25,906 nt of DNA, from positions 1 through 25,906 of the IMG/VR virus record IMGVR_UViG_3300042298_000163; one strand, written 5' to 3'. This DNA comes from a virus. The notes below the pieces were generated by a model that was not told the DNA's origin, searched no databases, and was given only the letters and a program-made list of their open reading frames with translations. Position numbers and translations under genes: made by a program. Each line of letters opens with the position of its first letter. Position 1 is the first letter of the stretch. Below, piece by piece: positions 1-22,874 of this stretch.

Positions 1-519
1 ATCACCAAGCAGCTTACCAAGACGCTGTTGTTTACCAGCCCCACGATGGTCACGCCTGTGCTGGGTACAGTGACCAGCGGCAATATCAGCGCCTGCACCA
101 GCACCAGCATGGTCATGGTCACTCCTGTCATTGGTGCAGCCACAGGCACAAGCCTTGCAGTCACCGCAGCGGTCACATCCTCTGGCACGGCTGGTGTGGG
201 TTATGCCACTGGTGCTGGCGGTGCAGTTACGCAGATCACCAGCCGAACCACAGGTGTGACGCTAGACAAGACCACTGGTGCAATTACGCTGTTCAGCGCA
301 GCAGGTTCGGCAACAGCGGCAACCTTCACCGTTACCAACAGCACTGTGGCAGCGACTGATGTGATTATCTTGAACCAAAAGTCAGGCACAGACCTGTACG
401 ACTTGATGGTCACGGCTGTTGCGGCAGGCAGTTTTAACGTCACCTTCCGAACCACTGGCGGCACGACAACAGAGACACCCGTGTTTAACTTTGCCGTCAT
501 CAAGGGCGTGGCAGCGTAA
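1..519 (+). CDS. Virion protein, C-terminal part (fibre/decoration-like), cut by window edge
   Basis: The reading frame is open from base 1 and ends at TAA 517-519, so the true start lies left of the window. The visible 172 residues are almost entirely Ala, Gly, Thr, Ser and Val, with short beta-strand-like repeats (TPVLG/TPVIG, ATGTSL) followed by a compact segment ending FAVIKGVAA. I remember this type of low-complexity, Ig-like beta domain from phage tail-fibre or head-decoration proteins, but cannot name a family with certainty. It lies directly before a P22 gp10-like gene and shares one base with it (TAATG), which places it in the virion assembly operon. An in-frame TTG at 28 and ATG at 46 are unlikely to be the real start because the frame is open upstream with the same composition. 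Confidence 0.7.
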   Translation: MTKQLTKTLLFTSPTMVTPVLGTVTSGNISACTSTSMVMVTPVIGAATGTSLAVTAAVTSSGTAGVGYATGAGGAVTQITSRTTGVTLDKTTGAITLFSAAGSATAATFTVTNSTVAATDVIILNQKSGTDLYDLMVTAVAAGSFNVTFRTTGGTTTETPVFNFAVIKGVAA

Positions 520-2162
520 TGAAAACGCCCATCCTCGGTTCATCCTACGTGGCCCGCAGTGTCAACGCTGCGGATGCCCGCATGGTCAACCTGTTCCCCG
601 AGGTCATCCCCGAGGGTGGACTAGAGCCTGCGTTTCTGAACCGTGCGCCAGGGTTGCGCTTGCTGGCGTCGATCGGCAACGGTCCAATCCGTGGCCTGTG
701 GGATTTTGCGCCTGACAGCAGCACCGCCTTTGTTGTGTCGGGCAACCAGTTCTTCAAAATCACCAACAGTTACGTTCCCACGTTGCTGGGCACCGTGGCG
801 GGCACTGGCCCCGTGAGCATCGCTGACAACGGAACCCAAGTGTTCATTGCAGCCAACGGGCCAAGCTACATCTACAACAACACGACCAACGTGTTCCAGC
901 AGATCACCGACCCTGACTTTCCCGGCGCAGTGAGCGTGGGCTATCTGGACGGCTACTTTGTGTTCAACGAGCCAAACAGCCAGCGCCTTTGGATCACCAG
1001 CCTGCTGGACGGCCTGTCCGTGGACCCGCTGGATTTTGTAAGCGCCGAGGGTGCGCCTGACGACATAACCGCCTTGATCGTTGACCACCGCGAAGTGTGG
1101 GTGCTGGGCACCAACTCGGTCGAGGTTTGGTACAACGCCGGGACAGCAGACTTTCCGTTGCAGCGCATCCAAGGCGCTTTTAACGAGATTGGCTGCATCT
1201 CCCCCTACTCGCTTGCCAAACTCGACAACGGCGTGTTCTGGCTGGGTTCTGACGCCCGTGGCAAGGGCATCGTCTACCGGGCCAACGGCTACACGGGCAC
1301 CCGCATCTCGACACACGCTGTCGAGTGGCAAATCCAGCAGTACGACGACATCACTGACGCCTTTGGGTACACGTACCAGCAAGACGGTCACGCTTTCTAC
1401 GTCCTGATCTTCCCATCGGCCAACACCACATGGGTGTATGACGTGGCAACGCAGGCATGGCACGAACGGGCTGGGTTTGAGAATGGGCAATTTACCCGTC
1501 ACCGCAGCAACTGCCAAATGGCGTTTAACAACGAGATTGTTGTCGGTGACTTTCAGACTGGCAACATCTACGCCTTTGATCTTGAGGATTACTCGGACAA
1601 CGGCCAGATTCAAAAGTGGTATCGCACATGGCGGGCACTGCCTACGGGCCAGAACAACTTCAAACGCACTGCGCAGCACAGCCTTCAGCTTAACTGTGAA
1701 GCAGGTGTTGGCTTGAACTTGTACCCCGCCTACGATGCGGAAGAATTAACGGCTGAAAACGGCGACATTTTGATTGCCGAGTACGTGCAAAACGAAATTA
1801 CTGCCGAAACGGGCGAAGTGCTGACCACCGAGGCGGGTGATGGTTTTGAGCCGCTGGTTGATGCAGCCGCCTACCCCGTGCCGTTTGTGCCGCCCATGAT
1901 GTTGTCAACCATTGGTTATTCTGCTGCACCTGGTTACGACCCCCAAGTCATGCTGCGCTGGAGCGATGACGGTGGACACACATGGTCTAACGAGCACTGG
2001 ACATCTTTGGGTCCAATCGGTGCTTATGGACGCCGTACATTTTGGAGGCGCTTGGGCATGACGCTCAAGCTGCGTGACCGGGTGTACGAGTTGTCGGGCA
2101 CTGACCCCGTGAAGATTGCCATCATGGGTGCTGAACTTATCCTCAGTCCGACTGTCGCGTAA
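519..2162 (+). CDS. Packaged DNA stabilisation protein, P22 gp10-like (tail hub/head completion)
   Basis: The 547-residue protein resembles the phage stabilisation family typified by P22 gp10, which forms a ring below the portal and gp4 and helps keep packaged DNA in the head. Visible hallmarks are the N-terminal segment about Ser-Tyr-Val-Ala-Arg-Ser and NLFPE (residues 9-28), the APGLRLL motif near residue 44, and many Trp/Tyr-rich beta-propeller-like repeats (for example WVLGTNSVEVWY near 195 and WVYDVATQAWHERAGF near 306). Family size is usually somewhat under 500 residues; this one carries an extra acidic segment around residues 408-440 (repeated TAENGD/TAETGE). The ATG overlaps the stop of the upstream gene by one base (TAATG) and its own stop overlaps the next start the same way, indicating translational coupling. 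Confidence 0.88.
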   Translation: MKTPILGSSYVARSVNAADARMVNLFPEVIPEGGLEPAFLNRAPGLRLLASIGNGPIRGLWDFAPDSSTAFVVSGNQFFKITNSYVPTLLGTVAGTGPVSIADNGTQVFIAANGPSYIYNNTTNVFQQITDPDFPGAVSVGYLDGYFVFNEPNSQRLWITSLLDGLSVDPLDFVSAEGAPDDITALIVDHREVWVLGTNSVEVWYNAGTADFPLQRIQGAFNEIGCISPYSLAKLDNGVFWLGSDARGKGIVYRANGYTGTRISTHAVEWQIQQYDDITDAFGYTYQQDGHAFYVLIFPSANTTWVYDVATQAWHERAGFENGQFTRHRSNCQMAFNNEIVVGDFQTGNIYAFDLEDYSDNGQIQKWYRTWRALPTGQNNFKRTAQHSLQLNCEAGVGLNLYPAYDAEELTAENGDILIAEYVQNEITAETGEVLTTEAGDGFEPLVDAAAYPVPFVPPMMLSTIGYSAAPGYDPQVMLRWSDDGGHTWSNEHWTSLGPIGAYGRRTFWRRLGMTLKLRDRVYELSGTDPVKIAIMGAELILSPTVA

Positions 2163-3073
2163 TGGCAACCGCACAACTGACCAACATCACGCCTCCTCGG
2201 GTTCCTTTGCTGGACCCGAAGACTGGCCTTATCTCGCGTGAGTGGTATCGCTTTTTCTTGAGCCTGTTTGTGCTGACCGGCAGCGGCCAGAATACCGCAT
2301 CGCTGACCGACTTGCAGGTGGGGCCACCCATGCCCACCCAAGAAGACTTTGGCGAGATCGTCATCAGTATTGATTCGCTCAAGACACAGCCAAGTCAGGA
2401 AAGCGCACTTGACCAAATCGCCGAGTTGCAGAAACAGATCGACGGGTTGCAAAAGCAGATTGAGTGTCCTTGCACCGAACTGACAGCCGAGTTGCAAAAG
2501 CAAATCGAGGGGTTGCAAAAGCAGATCGAAAGCCCTTGCACTGAACTGACAGCCGAGTTGCAAAAGCAGATCGAGGGTCTTCAAATGACCCCAGCCCCTC
2601 GTGAGTTTGAACGATCGCGGTACGGCTCGTTCTACGACACCACGACTCAGACGGCCACCACGATCAACACGGCCCAAGCGATTACGTTCAACACTACGGA
2701 CTTGAGCCGAGGTGTGTATCTTGGCACCCCAACATCAAGGGTGTACGTGGACACACCGGGCATCTACAACTTTGACACCTCGTTTCAGTTGGACAAGACC
2801 ACAGGCGGCGTGGCCGAGTTCTACTTCTGGTTTCGACTCAACGGCACAGACGTGCCCGACAGCGCCAGCCAGATCAGGATTCAGGGCAATGACGCTGAGA
2901 TATTTTCGTCACTCAACTACTTTTTTGACCTCAACGCTGGCGACTACGTTGAGATGATGTTTTCAACGACCAGCCTGAGTGTTGAACTTCTTTCCGTGCC
3001 TGCGACTGCACCTGTCCCCGGCATACCGTCTATCATTCTCACAGTTTCAAACAATATTGGGGGTATCCAATGA
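2162..3073 (+). CDS. Tail-needle-like protein: coiled coil with C-terminal knob
   Basis: This 303-residue protein has three parts. Residues 1-60 carry the segment PPRVPLLDPKTGLISREWYRFF, broken here by a hydrophobic stretch, and look like an anchoring region. Residues 84-145 form a coiled coil built from a 22-residue repeat (AELQKQIxGLQKQIE...PCTELT). Residues 150-303 look like a beta-rich knob with alternating aromatic and polar residues (YFWFRLNGTDVP, GDYVEMMF), similar in style to C1q/TNF-like phage knobs. In P22 and Sf6 the gene after gp10 encodes gp26, the trimeric needle that plugs the tail, and Sf6-type needles end in a TNF-like knob. Gene order and architecture therefore suggest a gp26 analogue. 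Sequence identity to gp26 was not seen, so this is inference. It could also be a fibre. Confidence 0.62.
   Translation: MATAQLTNITPPRVPLLDPKTGLISREWYRFFLSLFVLTGSGQNTASLTDLQVGPPMPTQEDFGEIVISIDSLKTQPSQESALDQIAELQKQIDGLQKQIECPCTELTAELQKQIEGLQKQIESPCTELTAELQKQIEGLQMTPAPREFERSRYGSFYDTTTQTATTINTAQAITFNTTDLSRGVYLGTPTSRVYVDTPGIYNFDTSFQLDKTTGGVAEFYFWFRLNGTDVPDSASQIRIQGNDAEIFSSLNYFFDLNAGDYVEMMFSTTSLSVELLSVPATAPVPGIPSIILTVSNNIGGIQ
2420..2584 (+). repeat. 66-bp tandem repeat (2.5 copies) in the coiled coil
   Basis: Three consecutive units begin with GCCGAGTTGCA at 2420, 2486 and 2552. The period is exactly 66 bp (22 residues) and the third copy breaks off after about 33 bp. The units are nearly identical at DNA level, including silent positions, so the duplication is recent. 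Each unit encodes a Leu/Ile heptad-like helix followed by a Cys-Pro-Cys or Ser-Pro-Cys turn. Confidence 0.9.
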
Positions 3074-3405
3074 CAGTCACCGTTAAAAACCTTGTGCCAT
3101 CGAAAGATGTTGCAAACAGCCAGACAACCCAGTACACCGCAACCGGCGTGACCACGATCATCGACAAGTTTACGGCGACCAATTACAGCGCCAGTGCTGC
3201 CACGATCTCGGTCAACTTGGTTACCCTGGCAGGCTCCGCTGGCAACAGCAACCTGATCACCAAGACCAAGACGCTTCAGCCGTCCGAGGTCTACACGTTT
3301 CCCGAGTTGGTCGGGCAGGTTTTGAACCCCGGCGACTTCATCAGTACAATCGCTGGAACCGCCACCGCCATCAACATGCGGGTTTCTGGCCGCGAGGTGA
3401 CCTGA
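3070..3405 (+). CDS. Small virion-type beta protein, function unknown
   Basis: The 111-residue product has no charged or hydrophobic transmembrane segment and alternates Thr/Val/Ile residues, as expected of a single beta-sandwich domain (for example TATGVTTIIDKFTATNYS near residue 23 and TKTLQPSEVYTFPEL near 66). It starts at an ATGA overlap with the needle-like gene and carries GGGGGT 5 bases before the ATG. Small beta proteins of this kind often lie between the needle and ejection genes of P22-like phages. I do not recognise a named family. A head- or tail-decoration role is only a guess from position. Confidence 0.75.
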   Translation: MTVTVKNLVPSKDVANSQTTQYTATGVTTIIDKFTATNYSASAATISVNLVTLAGSAGNSNLITKTKTLQPSEVYTFPELVGQVLNPGDFISTIAGTATAINMRVSGREVT

Positions 3406-3872
3406 TGCAAGTGACTTACGGTGAAGGGTTCGCTGTTGCGCCGCCTCAAATGATGCGGCAAAAGGTAGAATCGTTGCAGCAAGAGTTGTCAAAACTGCCG
3501 CAATACGAACCCAAGACAAAGCACTATTTCCACGGCGGTATGTACTGCCGCGAAGTGTTTCGTCACGCCGGAGTGCTGGTAGTTGGGGCAATCCACAAGA
3601 AAGAACACTTGTACCTCATCGTGTCAGGCACCGTGGCGATCACGGACGGTGAGGGTAATGTGCAAGAGGTCACCGGGCCTCACTTGTTTCAAAGCAAACC
3701 CGGGACAAAGCGGGCAGTGTACGCAGTTACTGATGCGCTTTGCATGACGTTTCACGCCATTGAGGCAACAACGGTCGAGAAAGCCGAAGCCGATCTGGTT
3801 GAGGTAGAACCCGATTCGATGTATGCTTTGGGCAACACGGTCAAGAACAAACAAATTGAGGTGTCACTATGA
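3405..3872 (+). CDS. Cupin-like (RmlC-fold) phage protein, function unknown
   Basis: The 155-residue product carries a sequence suggestive of a small cupin barrel: YFHGGMYCREVF (residues 42-53), HKKEHLYLIVSGTVAI (about 65-80), and GPHLFQSKPGTKRAVYA (about 91-107), ending DALCMTFHA. The His and Glu residues in HKKEH and the later His are where cupins place metal ligands. A leading helical segment (residues 15-35) precedes the barrel. It shares one base with the upstream stop (TGATG) and its stop overlaps the next start (ATGA), so it is coupled to the ejection gene. Cupin-like proteins occur in many phage virion operons without a proven role; enzymatic activity is not implied. Confidence 0.72.
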   Translation: MQVTYGEGFAVAPPQMMRQKVESLQQELSKLPQYEPKTKHYFHGGMYCREVFRHAGVLVVGAIHKKEHLYLIVSGTVAITDGEGNVQEVTGPHLFQSKPGTKRAVYAVTDALCMTFHAIEATTVEKAEADLVEVEPDSMYALGNTVKNKQIEVSL

Positions 3873-4624
3873 CATTTTGGGTAGCTGGTGCCGTTGTCGG
3901 CAGTGCATTAATTGGCGGTCGAGCGTCTGGTAAAGCAGCCGAGGCGCAAGCTGGCGCTGCTGACCAATCCGCGCAAATTCAAAAGCAAATTGCTGATCAA
4001 CAAATTGCACTTCAACGTGAGCAATTTAATCGACAAATTGAATTGCAGCAACCGTTTCGCGATGTAGGATTGCGGGCACTAAACAAACTAGAAGGTGCGA
4101 CAGATTACACGCCTTTTGGTATGTCGCAGTTTCAGCAAGACCCCGGTTATTCATTTAGGATGTCCGAGGGGATGAAGGGTCTGGAGCGATCCGCTGCTGC
4201 TCGTGGTGGCCTGCTCTCGGGTTCTACGCTTAAGGGCATCCAGCGATTTGGTCAAGACCTTGGATCGCAGGAGTACCAGAACGCTTTTAACCGTTATCAA
4301 ACTGAACGCAGCGCCCGTTTAAACCCACTTCAGTCGTTGGCCGGTGTTGGTCAAACTTCGGCACAGCAAGTCGGAGCAGCGGGTCAAAATATGGCTTCGG
4401 GAATAAGCAATGCGTTGGGTGCTTACGGTCAAGGTGCAAGTGAGGCTTTTGGTGCTGCCGGTCAAGCCCGAGCCTCGGGTTACGTGGGTGGTGCCAACGC
4501 GTTGACTGGTGCCTTGAGCACTGGTCTGAACTACTATCAGGGTCAGCAATACTTAAACGCACTGCGTCCTCCGACACCAACTGTTGGGTACTCGGGTCAA
4601 GGCCCAATGGGTTACGCCCCGTAA
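3869..4624 (+). CDS. DNA-ejection-type virion protein (P22 gp7/gp14 position)
   Basis: The 251-residue protein begins with a hydrophobic, glycine-rich segment (WVAGAVVGSALIGG, residues 4-17), continues as a long Gln-rich helix (QIQKQIADQQIALQREQFNRQIELQQPF) and ends in a Gly/Ala/Gln-rich tail. A central block, PGYSFRMSEGMKGLERSAAARGGLLSG, is one I remember from proteins annotated as phage DNA transfer or ejection proteins. In P22 three proteins (gp7, gp20, gp16) are packaged in the head and ejected to form a DNA conduit across the envelope. This is the first of three consecutive genes of that character here. It starts at an ATGA overlap with the cupin-like gene. Confidence 0.7.
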   Translation: MTFWVAGAVVGSALIGGRASGKAAEAQAGAADQSAQIQKQIADQQIALQREQFNRQIELQQPFRDVGLRALNKLEGATDYTPFGMSQFQQDPGYSFRMSEGMKGLERSAAARGGLLSGSTLKGIQRFGQDLGSQEYQNAFNRYQTERSARLNPLQSLAGVGQTSAQQVGAAGQNMASGISNALGAYGQGASEAFGAAGQARASGYVGGANALTGALSTGLNYYQGQQYLNALRPPTPTVGYSGQGPMGYAP

Positions 4625-4633
4625 GGACTGAAA

Positions 4634-6229
4634 ATGGCAACTAATCCCAACATCTCATTGGCCGTCAGAGGCATCGAACTACAAGACCCACTGGCTCAGT
4701 ACGGTCGTGTGGCAGCTATCCAAGGCGCACAGCAGCAAAACCAACTGGCCCAGTTGCAAATGCGGCAAGTGCAGCGTGAGCAAGAATCAACCAATGCGCT
4801 GAACCGCGCATACGCCGAGGCGTACAACCCACAGACCGGTGAAATTGACATCAACAGGCTGCGTGGGTCACTCTCGACTGGTGGCTTTGGCTCCAAGTTG
4901 CCCGGTATTGAAAAGGGTTTAGTTGATTTGCAGACTGCCCGCACGACACAGCAAAAGTTACAAGGTGATGTAGCAGCACAGCCTACGACATTGGCGGCTG
5001 CTCAATCTAAGTTGCTTGACGATAAACTAAAACAGTCGCGTGGTTTTCTTGAAACGCTTGACCCAGCCTCGCCCGATGCTGCCGAAAGATACATGCAGTG
5101 GCACCGCGCCAACCATGCTGACCCCGTAATCGGCAAAGCATTGGAAGCCCGTGGTATCACGGTGGACCAGTCAATGGCCCGCATTCAACAATTGTTGCAG
5201 ACCCCGGGTGGCTTAAACCGTTTGATCAACGAGTCCAAGCTGGGCACCGAAAAGTTCATGGAGATGAACAAGCCGCAACTGTCCACTAAGGACACCGGCA
5301 ATGTGTTGATTGACCGCACGTTCCAACCGTTGACAGGTCAAATTACCGAAGTCAGTCGTACCCCTAAGATGATGGCTCCGGGTGAGCAAGAGCGCATTGA
5401 CATCGGTCGCAGTCAACTTCGTACATCACAAGGTCAACTCAGTTTGGCGCAGGAAAAGTTTGCGTTTGAACAGGCCAATCCTGGCTTTGAACTTAAAGAA
5501 GCTGAAGATGGCTCAATTGTTGGTGTGAACAAGCGCACCTTGCAGGCTTTCCCTGTTTCAATTGGTGGCGCTGCGCCTGCGGCTGCTCCAGCGGCACCTG
5601 GTGCGGGTATGCCTGGGCCACGTATGCCAGCACCAGCAACGCAAGCCATCCCAGGCATGACCAGTGTGCTGGATCAACCCGCTGTCGCTGCCGCACCTGG
5701 GGTTGCTTCTGCTGCTGGTCCAACACAACTGCGTGGCAAATCCACGGCACTTAACGAGGGGCAAGCCAACGCTACGGCGTTTGGCATCAGGATGCTAGAA
5801 GCCGAAACCATTTTGGAAGACTTGGCCAAAAAAGGCGTTTTGAAAGGTGCGGTGATTGAGCAGACCCCATTTATTGGCGGAACCTTGGGCCGAGTCTTGC
5901 CAAGTGCTTTGGGCGGCACCAGCACAGCGCAACAACAAGTCAATCAAGCAAAATCAAACTTCATTACTGCTGTGTTGAGAAAAGAATCTGGCGCTGTAAT
6001 TTCAGATTCAGAATTTGCCAGAGAAGATGAAAAATACTTTCCACAAATTAATGACAATCCTGAAGTTGTAAAACAAAAAGCCAGAGCAAGGCGATTGGCT
6101 ATTGAGTCTATGAAAATTCAAGCAGGGCCAGGTGCAAAAAACATTTCGCCTAAGTTTATAACCGGCATTCCAAGTGCAGTTGGCGCAACAAACAACGATC
6201 CACTTGGACTTGGAATTAGGGGCCAATAA
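4634..6229 (+). CDS. DNA-ejection-type virion protein (P22 gp20/gp16 position)
   Basis: The product has 531 residues. AAGGA six bases before the ATG supports the start. Residues 20-110 are helical and Gln-rich (RVAAIQGAQQQNQLAQLQMRQVQ, broken by charged residues). Residues about 315-365 form an Ala/Pro-rich linker. The C-terminal 150 residues contain SNFITAVLRKESGAVISDSEF followed by YFPQINDNPEVVKQKARARR, a helical motif I recall from the C-terminal regions of podovirus injection proteins. The last 290 bases are clearly AT-richer than the rest (about 38 percent GC over 5941-6180), hinting at a different origin for this domain. Assignment rests on position, helical composition and the C-terminal motif. 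Confidence 0.68.
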   Translation: MATNPNISLAVRGIELQDPLAQYGRVAAIQGAQQQNQLAQLQMRQVQREQESTNALNRAYAEAYNPQTGEIDINRLRGSLSTGGFGSKLPGIEKGLVDLQTARTTQQKLQGDVAAQPTTLAAAQSKLLDDKLKQSRGFLETLDPASPDAAERYMQWHRANHADPVIGKALEARGITVDQSMARIQQLLQTPGGLNRLINESKLGTEKFMEMNKPQLSTKDTGNVLIDRTFQPLTGQITEVSRTPKMMAPGEQERIDIGRSQLRTSQGQLSLAQEKFAFEQANPGFELKEAEDGSIVGVNKRTLQAFPVSIGGAAPAAAPAAPGAGMPGPRMPAPATQAIPGMTSVLDQPAVAAAPGVASAAGPTQLRGKSTALNEGQANATAFGIRMLEAETILEDLAKKGVLKGAVIEQTPFIGGTLGRVLPSALGGTSTAQQQVNQAKSNFITAVLRKESGAVISDSEFAREDEKYFPQINDNPEVVKQKARARRLAIESMKIQAGPGAKNISPKFITGIPSAVGATNNDPLGLGIRGQ

Positions 6230-8101
6230 ATGGCAACACTTGCTGAATTTAGAACACAGTACCCTCAGTACAACGATGTTCCTGACCTGACATTGGCTGA
6301 CTCACTGCACCAAAAGTTTTACAGCCAGATCCCCAAGATGGACTTTTACAAGACCATCGGTTTGGGTTCGGCTGCGGCAATCCCAGGCGCTGAAAATGTT
6401 GTGACTGGCGTTAAGCCACCAGAGGTGTCTATGCGTGACCGAATCTCGGGCATCATAGAAACACCGCTGGCGCTGGGTGCGACTTTGGCCGGAGGTTTAA
6501 TCTCTCCAATTGCCGGTGGCATCTCACTTGCTGCCAGCGGTCAAGGCATTAACACGCCAGAAGGCCGCAGGGCTATGGAAGCAGGCATGAAGGCTGTTCA
6601 GTACCAACCCCGTACACAAACCGCAAGGCAAGCGTTGGGTGCCGTTGGCGAGTTCTTGCAGCCGTTGACTGCGGCACTGCCGCCAACACTTGGTAGTGTT
6701 GGCACTTCGTTGAACGCTCTGGCTTTTCCTGCCATACAGCAGACCGGCGCTGCCCTGCGGCCAATGGTTGCGCAAATGGCACCACCAGTGCAAAACGCTT
6801 TGGCAAGAGTCTTGCCAACGCCACAACAGCCTCAAATGCAGGGCATGGGCGCTGCGACTACCGCAGAAGATCTGATGCGCCAAGAGCGTTTGCAGCGTTT
6901 GGGCATTCGTGCCACGGCTGGTGAGCGTGAAAAGAATTTACAAAAGCAACAGTTTGAGTCTGAAGTTCAGCGTGGCGTCATTGCTGGCATTCCTGAAGAC
7001 GTAAAAGTTGAATTGTCTGAAAAAGCCAGAACATTTAAGACCGGCCAAAAACAAGACATCATCAACAACTTTGAACGCATGACTAGCGAAGTCGGTGCAG
7101 AAGTTGCCGACCCAACGCAGATGAGGGCTGTGGGCCGAATCGTAGACAAGGCGTTGAACGACGAGTACACCAAGAAATTTGATGCTTACAAGCAGTTGTA
7201 TGCCCGAGCCGACAACGCTGGCGAGACATTGCAACAAGTGCCGTATCAAAGTTTGCTGGATTACATCAACACCAAGACACCAACACAGCGCCAAAAGCTA
7301 GATCCAATTTTGGATTCTGTGGCTGAGTCATTGAGAATGAATGACCCACAAAACACTGGCGCAATTTCTGTGCGTGCGCTTGAAGACATCTACCAACAAA
7401 TTGGCACGGTCAAAGATTCGGCAAACGCCAAGCCTATGAAGAACATCATTACCCAGATGGGTGAGGGTGCCGGCGGTGAGTTGTATCAAGCAGCACGCAA
7501 AGCCAGAGAGCAATTGGCAAAGCAGTTTGAAGACGTGTCCAGAGTGGACAAGCTGTTGAGCACCAAATCTGGCTACGCTGACCGCAGGGTGGCGCTTGAC
7601 GATGTGTTCAAGCATATTGTGTTGGACGGCTCTTTGGAAGAAATGCGCACGGTCACCACTTTGCTGAAAAAAGGTGGACCAGCCGGCCAACAAGCCTACA
7701 AAGAATTGCAAGGCCAGACCATTCAACAGATGAAAGAGATGCTCACCAAAGGTGATCAGATGTCTTTCAGAAACCTGAACACGTTGATCAATCAATTGGA
7801 CAACGAAGACAAGCTGGTTTACATGTATGGCAAATCTGGCCGTGATCAGATCATGGATCTACGAGATGCCATCAAAGATGTGGTGGTCAAAGAGCCTGGC
7901 GCTGTCAATTACAGCAACACTTCTGGTGCTGTCTTGCGTGGCCTTGAGGCTTTGCAGAAATTGCCAGTGCGCATACCTGGTGTGCAAACAGCCGCTGAAG
8001 TTGCGCGTACACGCCAAGTAAAAAAGCAGTTTGAACAATCACTGCAACAGCCAAACCAACTGGCCCCAAAAACTACCAAACAAAACTACCTTGCGCCTTA
8101 A
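6230..8101 (+). CDS. DNA-ejection-type virion protein, large (third of the block)
   Basis: The 623-residue product begins immediately after the previous stop (TAAATG) with AGGGG as ribosome site. Its N-terminus, LAEFRTQYPQYNDVPDLTLADSLHQKFY with a following PKMDFYKTIG, is a motif I recognise from many large phage ejection and polyvalent virion proteins. A Gly/Ala-rich hydrophobic segment lies at about residues 80-110 (TPLALGATLAGGLISPIAGG), able to touch or cross a membrane. The remainder (210-600) is long, charged and helical. This matches the behaviour expected of P22 gp16/gp20-type conduit proteins, but no catalytic motif is visible. Its end is followed by a short gap and then the lysis genes. 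Confidence 0.68.
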   Translation: MATLAEFRTQYPQYNDVPDLTLADSLHQKFYSQIPKMDFYKTIGLGSAAAIPGAENVVTGVKPPEVSMRDRISGIIETPLALGATLAGGLISPIAGGISLAASGQGINTPEGRRAMEAGMKAVQYQPRTQTARQALGAVGEFLQPLTAALPPTLGSVGTSLNALAFPAIQQTGAALRPMVAQMAPPVQNALARVLPTPQQPQMQGMGAATTAEDLMRQERLQRLGIRATAGEREKNLQKQQFESEVQRGVIAGIPEDVKVELSEKARTFKTGQKQDIINNFERMTSEVGAEVADPTQMRAVGRIVDKALNDEYTKKFDAYKQLYARADNAGETLQQVPYQSLLDYINTKTPTQRQKLDPILDSVAESLRMNDPQNTGAISVRALEDIYQQIGTVKDSANAKPMKNIITQMGEGAGGELYQAARKAREQLAKQFEDVSRVDKLLSTKSGYADRRVALDDVFKHIVLDGSLEEMRTVTTLLKKGGPAGQQAYKELQGQTIQQMKEMLTKGDQMSFRNLNTLINQLDNEDKLVYMYGKSGRDQIMDLRDAIKDVVVKEPGAVNYSNTSGAVLRGLEALQKLPVRIPGVQTAAEVARTRQVKKQFEQSLQQPNQLAPKTTKQNYLAP

Positions 8102-19827: not shown

Positions 19828-20094
19828 GCAATGACCATGCCAGAAACAGCCAGAATTGATGTACCGATGTACCGAAACGGCAATTATTTTGAGGGTGAAA
19901 TGTACCGAACCGTACCGATCTGTACCGATTTCGGTTCGTTCGGTACAGTCCAAGTGTACCGAAACCATGTACCGATGTACCGAAACGTACCGAAACGTAC
20001 CGATGCCCGACTTGCCCGTTGTACCGAAACGTACCGAAGGGGTATATATACCCCCTTCGGTTCGGTACACAAAGTCGGGTCGAACCTTCGGTAC
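19785..20094 (+). repeat. GTACCGA iteron-like array (17 copies), candidate replication origin
   Basis: Direct GTACCGA copies begin at 19785, 19795, 19861, 19869, 19902, 19912, 19922, 19956, 19969, 19977, 19987, 19997, 20021 and 20031. Inverted TCGGTAC copies begin at 19940, 20062 and 20088. Many steps are 10 bp, one helical turn. Seventeen exact 7-mers in 310 bp cannot be chance. The first two lie inside the primase-helicase gene, the rest fill the 295 bases before RusA where no convincing gene is present. Iterons next to a replication gene usually mark an origin bound by an initiator (family knowledge); another role, such as partition or a regulator's operator, is possible. Confidence 0.9.
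20034..20060. repeat. Large imperfect inverted repeat inside the iteron array
   Basis: CCGAAGGGGTATA (20034-20046) faces TATACCCCCTTCGG (20047-20060), a stem of about 13 pairs with one extra C in the right arm and a TATATATA centre. Its AT centre could be the first place to open if the array is an origin; there is no T-run, so an intrinsic terminator is unlikely. Confidence 0.8.
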
Positions 20095-21461: not shown

Positions 21462-22874
21462 ATGCCGATCTACCAAAACGCTTTAGCCCAGCGTCCAGCC
21501 AACAGGCTGGCGTACCAAGACACCATGAGTGCGACCCCGCGCAACCAGGTGCTTGGGTACTTGGCTGATTTGGCGGCTGCGTCTTACGCACCGCAGCGCA
21601 CGCAGCAGATGCAGGGCATGGCGCAGTTCTTGTCACTGCCAGCGGTGAGTCAGACGCTGGACCGGCTGTCCTATGGTGAGCCACTGACCACTGGCAGAGG
21701 GATGACCACCCAGATCAGGCCAGAGGCAATTGAGGCGGCAATGGCCGTAGCACCACTGGCGCAACCGGTGACGATGGCGACGCTGGAGGCGGCAAGGCAG
21801 GCACGCAGGGCTGCGATGGCTGGTGGCCGTATGGCTGGCGAGGAGTTGGCTGCACGCATGATGTCTGGGCAGTCAACGATACCTGGCGTGCCGGCTGCGT
21901 TTGCGCCATCGCCTGTGAACTTTGCTGTGCCGCCATCTGGCCGCAGTGGGTTTGGTGCATTTGACCCGAGGTATGACCCGAGGGTGTTGGAGCAAGAGCG
22001 TTTGCGTGGCATGACTCGGGACATTCAGTTGAATCCTGGTGCGGCGAATGCACCGGCTGTTTCACTGGCTGATTTTGAGGGCAGGCCGTTTATCACGAGC
22101 ATGGCTGACAGGACGGCTGCTGGTGGTAAGTTGGTGGGCATCAATGATGTGCGGTTTAACAGGCCGGTGGAGTTGCGTGGCGGTCAGGACTACATGTTCA
22201 GCAATCCTGGTCAGGTGTGGGCATCTGGACAAGGGCCGGCCAAGGCTTTGATGAAGTATGCGGAAGAGGTCAAGAGCGCAACGGGTCAGAATCCTTTGTA
22301 TTTGCCGTATCGCATGGCGCCAACTGGTGGTGATTTTGCGCAAATGACGGGTGAGACGATGTTGGCGTATGCTGACAGCGCGATGGGGAAAATTCAAAAG
22401 AGAAGCCTAGACAAGTCGATCAAGAAGATGATTCCTGATTGGTCTGGTGTGTCAGATCCGGCCAGTGTGCAGCAGTTCCGCGATGCGCCAGACAAGGTGC
22501 GCAAGGCCGTGAAAAATATGATGGACACCAATTTCCGCAATACTGGAGGTCTGAACATTGGTGGCGCAAGGTTGGCCGTGTCTGACCCTGCGCAATTGGC
22601 TGCGCAAGAGGGTGGTGTGATGAACGTGGGTGAGATCTTTGCTGGAAGCCCGTTGTTGAGATCGACGCATCCGGCGTACCCAGGTGGGGTGCCGGGTCAG
22701 GGCATTGGCACCTTGGCTGAAGATGTCAATGTGTTTGAGTTGTTGCCGCAAGTGGTTCAAGGCCGTGGCATACCGGACCCAAAAAATCCGAGGGCATCAG
22801 ATTTAAGGGCGATGCAAATGCACCCTTACGCGGGAGTCATCACCAACCAGTTGCTCAAGCGCCTGGGATACTGA
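21462..22874 (+). CDS. Large protein between terminase genes, unknown (polyvalent/virion-type)
   Basis: The 470-residue product has an N-terminus MPIYQNALAQRP, a helical Ala/Met-rich region (30-140), a Pro/Gly-rich linker (140-185) and a well-conserved-looking C-terminal domain of about 280 residues with INDVRFNRPVELRGGQDYMF, YLPYRMAPTGGDFAQMTGET and FELLPQVVQGRGIPDPKNPR. I recall a domain of this kind within very long phage polyvalent or ejected proteins, but cannot name its activity. There is no Shine-Dalgarno sequence: seven Cs precede the ATG. An alternative start (21525) also lacks one. Possible roles are a virion-delivered factor or a packaging-associated protein; both are guesses. Confidence 0.72.
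   Translation: MPIYQNALAQRPANRLAYQDTMSATPRNQVLGYLADLAAASYAPQRTQQMQGMAQFLSLPAVSQTLDRLSYGEPLTTGRGMTTQIRPEAIEAAMAVAPLAQPVTMATLEAARQARRAAMAGGRMAGEELAARMMSGQSTIPGVPAAFAPSPVNFAVPPSGRSGFGAFDPRYDPRVLEQERLRGMTRDIQLNPGAANAPAVSLADFEGRPFITSMADRTAAGGKLVGINDVRFNRPVELRGGQDYMFSNPGQVWASGQGPAKALMKYAEEVKSATGQNPLYLPYRMAPTGGDFAQMTGETMLAYADSAMGKIQKRSLDKSIKKMIPDWSGVSDPASVQQFRDAPDKVRKAVKNMMDTNFRNTGGLNIGGARLAVSDPAQLAAQEGGVMNVGEIFAGSPLLRSTHPAYPGGVPGQGIGTLAEDVNVFELLPQVVQGRGIPDPKNPRASDLRAMQMHPYAGVITNQLLKRLGY

Follow-up and report, generated by a model that had tools for sequence, protein, structure and literature searches.

Gene order and domain plan at the needle position

The window analysed here is the whole 25,906-nucleotide stretch of IMG/VR virus record IMGVR_UViG_3300042298_000163, and near its start, on the plus strand, lies a gene for a 303 AA tail-tip protein (2162-3073) at the place where P22 and Sf6 have their needle gene. 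It follows a 547 AA Hc3/P22 gp10-like packaged-DNA stabilisation protein (519-2162, plus strand; phrog_578, E 2e-128), which also matched a stabilisation protein in PDB (9vyg_M, 7.6e-36), the needle head protein of the Pam1 tail (7EEQ, as 7eeq_1, E 3.5e-33) and, in a single comparison, P22 gp10 (E 3e-7), and which is likely the hub at which the needle base docks. The ATG of the needle-position gene sits on the stop codon of this preceding gene, as in Sf6. Downstream on the same strand follow a 111 AA protein with no assigned function (3070-3405), a 155 AA short tail fibre- or adhesin-like protein (3405-3872; phrog_12032) that stands in place of P22 gene 14 and is dissimilar to it, and a P22 gp7-like ejection protein (3869-4624; phrog_598, E 1e-41; P22 gp7, 4e-7). 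The order Hc3, target, small gene, 155 AA gene and gp7-like gene resembles gp10-gp26-gp14-gp7 of P22 and 8-9-10-11 of Sf6, in which the needle genes (P22 gp26, Sf6 gp9) lie in the same place as the target, directly after gp10 and before gp14-gp7, and the small terminase subunit of the window is of the Sf6 type. Counterparts of P22 gp14 and gp20 were sought with no match, and the gene at 1-519 did not match the tail adaptor of phage DSL-LC05.

Elsewhere in the window, 10-bp repeats (TGTACCGATC and GTACCGAAAC; TRF scores 44 and 54) form two short arrays at 19901-20003 inside a 99 AA frame, and a 470 AA frame upstream of the terminase (21462-22874) had no match in Pfam or PHROG. Positions 1-8070 were identical over 8070 bp to IMGVR_UViG_3300034356_000086 (L001); judging from this stretch, the two are probably the same phage.

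A pattern search of IMG/VR gave at least 574 relatives among the 600 matches listed. The set compared below came from three IMG/VR scans yielding at least 230 loci, with some contigs repeated; the needle frame was found in 229, L212 being the exception, and the loci held at least 157 unique stop-to-stop needle-position proteins. Two anchors occur among these, anchor A (PPRVPxxDPxTGLxSREWYRFFL), which is that of the window, and anchor B (LTRDQLAxFLTDQQQIRQFE), and we refer to the proteins as type A and type B. The Hc3 gene was directly upstream in 142 of the 144 unique relatives with more than 700 nt of upstream flank: 58 of 59 with the window-like anchor and the knob, all 51 with the anchor only, and 33 of the 34 type B relatives, which have only the knob in common with the window. 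The exceptions were L041, whose flank lacked an Hc3 match, and L072, in which Hc3 is there and the stop-to-stop frame runs into it. Among 102 unique relatives, the ejection protein was present within 3500 nt in 78, the small gene within 300 nt in 57, and the short tail fibre-like gene within 1500 nt in 30.

The target gene is a genuine open frame with tandem 66-bp repeats, and its product has three parts: the conserved anchor occupies about residues 1-45 (2162-2296), the helical stalk about 79-142, and the C1q/TNF-fold knob about 149-303 (2606-3070). The anchor was delimited by alignments, AlphaFold and our own search. With an alignment of 52 relatives, AlphaFold predicted a helix in the anchor (26-39), a low-confidence linker (52-78), two helices in the stalk (79-99, then 105-141) and, from about residue 150, a beta domain; pLDDT was mostly above 90 in the knob and about 65-77 in the stalk, and confidence was likewise low for a relative whose stalk has about five units. 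All models were of single chains. Of the non-redundant proteins with C1q knobs, the alignment covered 34 out of 38 in type A and 18 out of 24 in type B, the window standing for L001 (omitted were L026, L093, L117 and L142, and L035, L036, L037, L043, L062 and L063).

Structure comparison of the knob found BxpB (8d02, VIA Z 16.3), BclA (1wck, 15.5), the central spike knob of phi812 (9eul, 15.2), C1q (5hkj, 14.7) and a chain of the cyanophage A4 portal-tail complex (9k09_A, 14.4); as modelled, the knob has a C1q/TNF fold, i.e. it is a TNF-like C-terminal domain. The predicted fold of residues 149-303 is thus common to trimeric heads of the BclA, ExsF and C1q type and to the phi812 spike knob (Z 14-16), with about 10-18% identity to the window knob, and a common fold shows no function. 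By sequence the window knob scored 15.9 bits with Pfam BclA_C, below the gathering cut-off of 38, and 26 of the 52 relatives matched that family with E values of 0.01 or below, the best being 8.2e-5. Entries for the Sf6 or HS1 knobs did not appear among the 50 structure matches listed, nor did the window protein match the Sf6 knob in sequence.

The original prediction of a needle-like protein with a knob is well supported by the gene position, the adjoining gp10 and gp7 homologues, and the C1q/TNF-fold knob. Gene position is nevertheless no proof of a needle, because Pam1 has a homologue of Hc3, its needle head protein, and yet its annotated needle lies four genes further on, with another protein encoded directly after the needle head; by eye, the translation of the annotated needle differs from the target.

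Stalk units, their number and their cysteines

The stalk is encoded by a 66-bp tandem array (2420-2577, 2.4 copies) with a TRF score of 253, against a maximum of 61 (median 40) for the top array of any kind when the window was dinucleotide-shuffled 100 times, so that the 22-residue tandem repeats proposed for this gene are clearly there. Unit alignment resolved two full units and half of a third: unit 1 (2420-2485, residues 87-108), ending in CPC-TELT, unit 2 (2486-2551, residues 109-130), ending in SPC-TELT, each of 22 residues, and the partial unit (2552-2584, residues 131-141). The units had been described as nearly identical, which goes too far: they are clearly repeats, yet only 57 of 66 bases (86%) agree between units 1 and 2. 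Similarly, each unit was said to end in a turn, and this is supported for CPC only (C102-P103-C104, 2465-2473), because the predicted helix breaks there (residues 100-104, between helices 79-99 and 105-141) but crosses SPC (S124-P125-C126, 2531-2539), through which the single helix 105-141 runs.

The hydrophobic period of the window stalk was 3.63 (2 of 2000 shuffles). Of 14 stalks tried for hydrophobic periodicity, six had p≥0.10, and in three more the peak lay at the limit of the tested range (3.20-3.22), which is not a coiled-coil period. Against the 22-mer apolipoprotein repeats of Pfam (PF01442) the window scored 18.2 bits, below the gathering cut-off of 90. Stalk matches in Pfam and PHROG to Phage_scaffold, Mu Gam, Gp58 and apolipoprotein were rejected as coiled-coil cross-matches, being below the cut-off wherever one was given.

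Comparison of related phages, proposed along with the idea of a variable needle length, revealed relatives with a single unit. At the junction of units 1 and 2, exactly 66 bp are missing in frame from the genes of L002-L005, L099, L106 and L107, which elsewhere are 92-97% identical to that of the window; L083 and L087 contain the same two units as the window. These differences separate very close phages: the window and one-unit L099 were 97.8% identical over 2.4 kb, and two-unit L001 and L099 are sisters on the Hc3 tree with a branch length of almost nil. Stalk length moreover differs in steps of whole units, which supports a variable needle length. In 40 pairs with Hc3 identity of at least 95% and C1q knobs in both members, the difference was 0 residues in 21 pairs, 1 in two, 9 in one, 22 in 11, 24 in four and 25 in one; among 40 type B stalks, 20 had 67 residues, one 75, two 91 and 17 had 92, a step of 25 residues. 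Two further loci (L124:2971-3984 and L126:3770-4783) encode long stalks of about five proline-punctuated, ELQKQI-type units related to that of the window, in which the CC pair adjoins the anchor rather than sitting in the units.

The exact 66-bp absences indicate that unit number changed recently, and to that extent the claim of a recent expansion stands; the two copies themselves are older than "recent" implies, because unit 2 is 97% identical in L007, which has another anchor, and the data would fit either direction of change. One-unit genes read as the 5' part of unit 1 joined to the 3' part of unit 2, a structure compatible with deletion but also with divergence after duplication. The diverged L006 also has the two-unit form with CPC and SPC, which would fit loss as well as or better than gain, although gain may have occurred instead.

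On the Hc3 tree (98 rows, units counted by the pattern PC.EL), the 24 proteins with a PC.EL turn had to switch between one and two units at least 7 times, compared with a mean of 7.6 (range 5-9) for shuffled labels, so that unit number hardly follows the tree. Lability of this order would be expected if the 66-bp array were neutral slippage noise in a low-constraint spacer, with incidental cysteines and a unit number that has no effect, and Rhodoferax phage P26218, which does without a stalk, points the same way. We regard this explanation as quite unlikely, given that stalk length moves by whole units in both of the unrelated stalk types and that the cysteines, absent from the anchor, are enriched in the stalk, with pairing in every cluster that has more than one.

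The only cysteines of the window protein, C102, C104 and C126, are all in the stalk. When 96 splittable proteins with C1q knobs were reduced to 38 stalk clusters, cysteines made up 27 of 2885 stalk residues, 0 of 1763 anchor residues and 8 of 6251 knob residues (8 of 8014 for anchor and knob together; Fisher 5e-10, a value that overstates the contrast because the stalk clusters are still related). Ten clusters have more than one stalk cysteine, and in every one of them the cysteines are neighbours (CC) or separated by a single residue (CPC); four other clusters have one cysteine and 24 have none. A cysteine pair is present in 41 of 104 type A proteins, whereas eight have a single cysteine and 55 none; on the Hc3 tree, presence of the pair changed at least 11 times. 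From the comparison of sequences, the pairing and these frequent switches suggest that the cysteines function at the putative trimer axis, and their excess and pairing in the stalk lend indirect support to the proposed cross-chain disulphides. Some disulphide-clasped or segmented trimers, unrelated to the target, have paired cysteines or loops beside a three-stranded rod, as in the GPCCG knot of collagen III, the CxC of matrilin and T4 fibritin.

CxC and CC in a trimer would equally give a six-thiolate site, and the pairs could then bind metal or stay reduced and form no interchain disulphides. The drift of the motif among CPC, CC, SPC and a single C exceeds what would be expected of a metal site, and we consider this alternative unlikely, with nothing direct against it.

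Anchors and exchange of tips

A profile comparison of anchors A and B found no similarity between them. Hc3 identity to that of the window was about 59-100% in phages with anchor A and 25-29% in type B; because the anchors are dissimilar and Hc3 is so distant in type B, the unrelated anchors pair with different Hc3 lineages, with the knob common to both. L019, L057, L064 and other type B loci thus represent a second needle family: the knob is the same, but the anchor is unrelated, Hc3 is distant and the stalk units have 25 residues. Within type A (53 proteins), Spearman correlations were 0.33 for Hc3 and anchor, 0.26 for Hc3 and knob, and -0.03 for anchor and knob, so that the tie of the anchor to Hc3 appears weak, and only a little closer than that of the knob.

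The tips vary widely on anchor A, where 101 proteins fell into 12 tip clusters, and on the Hc3 tree (98 rows) the C1q tip and other tips replaced one another at least 24 times. One of the anchor A tips (L214) carries an S74 endosialidase chaperone, a domain of trimeric fibres. The window and L007 are 93% identical from position 2414 onwards and 76-81% in matched stretches before it, which places their junction at the first unit, and the similarity of type B relatives to the window starts mostly at residues 117-143, in some at 63-92. Judging from these breakpoints, tips seem to be exchanged between anchors at the stalk, which would act as the joint. Phage DSL-LC05 and Rhodoferax phage P26218 have the same anchor in the gene after gp10, with another stalk or none and with other tips, and their proteins are annotated as sialate O-acetylesterase or hypothetical protein. 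In P26218 gp31 (L239:7001-7321) the anchor is fused straight to a short tip, perhaps a minimal plug; the stalk is therefore dispensable in some phages.

Rapid exchange of tips would also be compatible with a receptor-binding side fibre. The protein could be a tail fibre or adhesin on the nozzle, in one or several copies, rather than an axial plug, with stalk length and tip varying through host range. The 12 tip clusters on one anchor, including that with the S74 chaperone, would suit such a fibre, as would the tail fibre-like gene two genes downstream of the target and the knobs of C1q type that occur in the phi812 central spike and the A4 complex, whose 372 AA chain equals in length the A-4L gene product annotated as tail fibre (a match in length only). 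The immediate linkage to Hc3 and the P22/Sf6-like gene order speak against this reading, and the tips of P22 needles are exchanged as well, with the knob apparently not setting host specificity (PMC3741392), for which reason tip exchange is compatible with a needle. Taken together, we judge the nozzle fibre unlikely, though it is the main rival of the needle reading.

Comparison with known needles and a proposed mechanism

The needles of P22, Sf6 and HS1 follow a plan like that proposed for the target, with an N-terminal virion part, a coiled-coil shaft and an exchangeable tip. In the P22 group the base of the needle plugs the DNA exit and needles are 220-320 Å long; Sf6 and HS1 have the same TNF-like knob on shafts of different length, with 16 heptads in HS1 compared with 11 in Sf6 and P22 (PMC3741392). 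Both variable needle length and exchangeable tips are therefore known in kind. Unlike P22-type shafts, those of this group are assembled from units of 22 or 25 residues that contain proline and paired cysteines, and the words "cysteine" and "disulfide" have zero occurrences in the main text of PMC3741392. Sequence homology with the P22 group was not detectable: hhalign of the anchors with 48 P22-type needles, a set with a Neff of only 1.2, gave probabilities of 0.15% (type A) and 0.22% (type B), and whole proteins compared with P22 and Sf6 needles gave 0.2-0.3%. A search for the anchor or stalk in solved structures gave nothing convincing, and in the open-licence PMC literature we found no paper on needles of this group. 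New here are the unrelated anchors in the same gene place, the exact unit-by-unit length steps between near-identical phages, and the paired stalk cysteines.

Based on these data, we conclude that the target is probably a trimeric tail needle, the central tail-tip protein of a podophage with P22/Sf6 gene order. Its trimeric state is inferred from the knob fold and from the S74 chaperone tip on the same anchor. In the virion, the N-terminal anchor would dock in and plug the exit of the Hc3 hub, residues 79-142 or so would form a parallel three-stranded helical rod, and the C-terminal C1q/TNF-type knob would cap the trimer and meet the cell. The rod would be modular, with whole units of 22 residues (25 in the second family) added or removed in frame as the repeats recombine or slip, each step moving the knob by an estimated 3.3 nm (22 residues x 0.15 nm) while anchor and knob stay unchanged, and different tips would swap between anchors at the stalk. 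In such a trimer the CPC and CC pairs would bring six thiols together, and we propose that they may clasp it covalently once the virion has left the reducing cytoplasm.

A still bolder reading would combine all of these features in a length-adjustable needle with a redox clasp, in which the units set reach, rings of cysteines oxidising after lysis lock each length, the repeats join swapped tips, and the two unrelated anchor families have converged on this arrangement. As a whole we hold this to be improbable.

A trimeric needle of this kind would bear on what sets needle length and on the role of the needle during DNA delivery. In the P22 group, genetic changes of the tip alter potassium release and hence the kinetics of delivery (PMC3741392). 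The near-isogenic natural pairs that differ by one rod unit make the effect of reach directly testable. The modules of the tail tip, moreover, are apparently joined in the repeat region. For the large group of proteins to which the target belongs, to which Pfam and PHROGs assign no needle family, these results provide a hypothesis of function.
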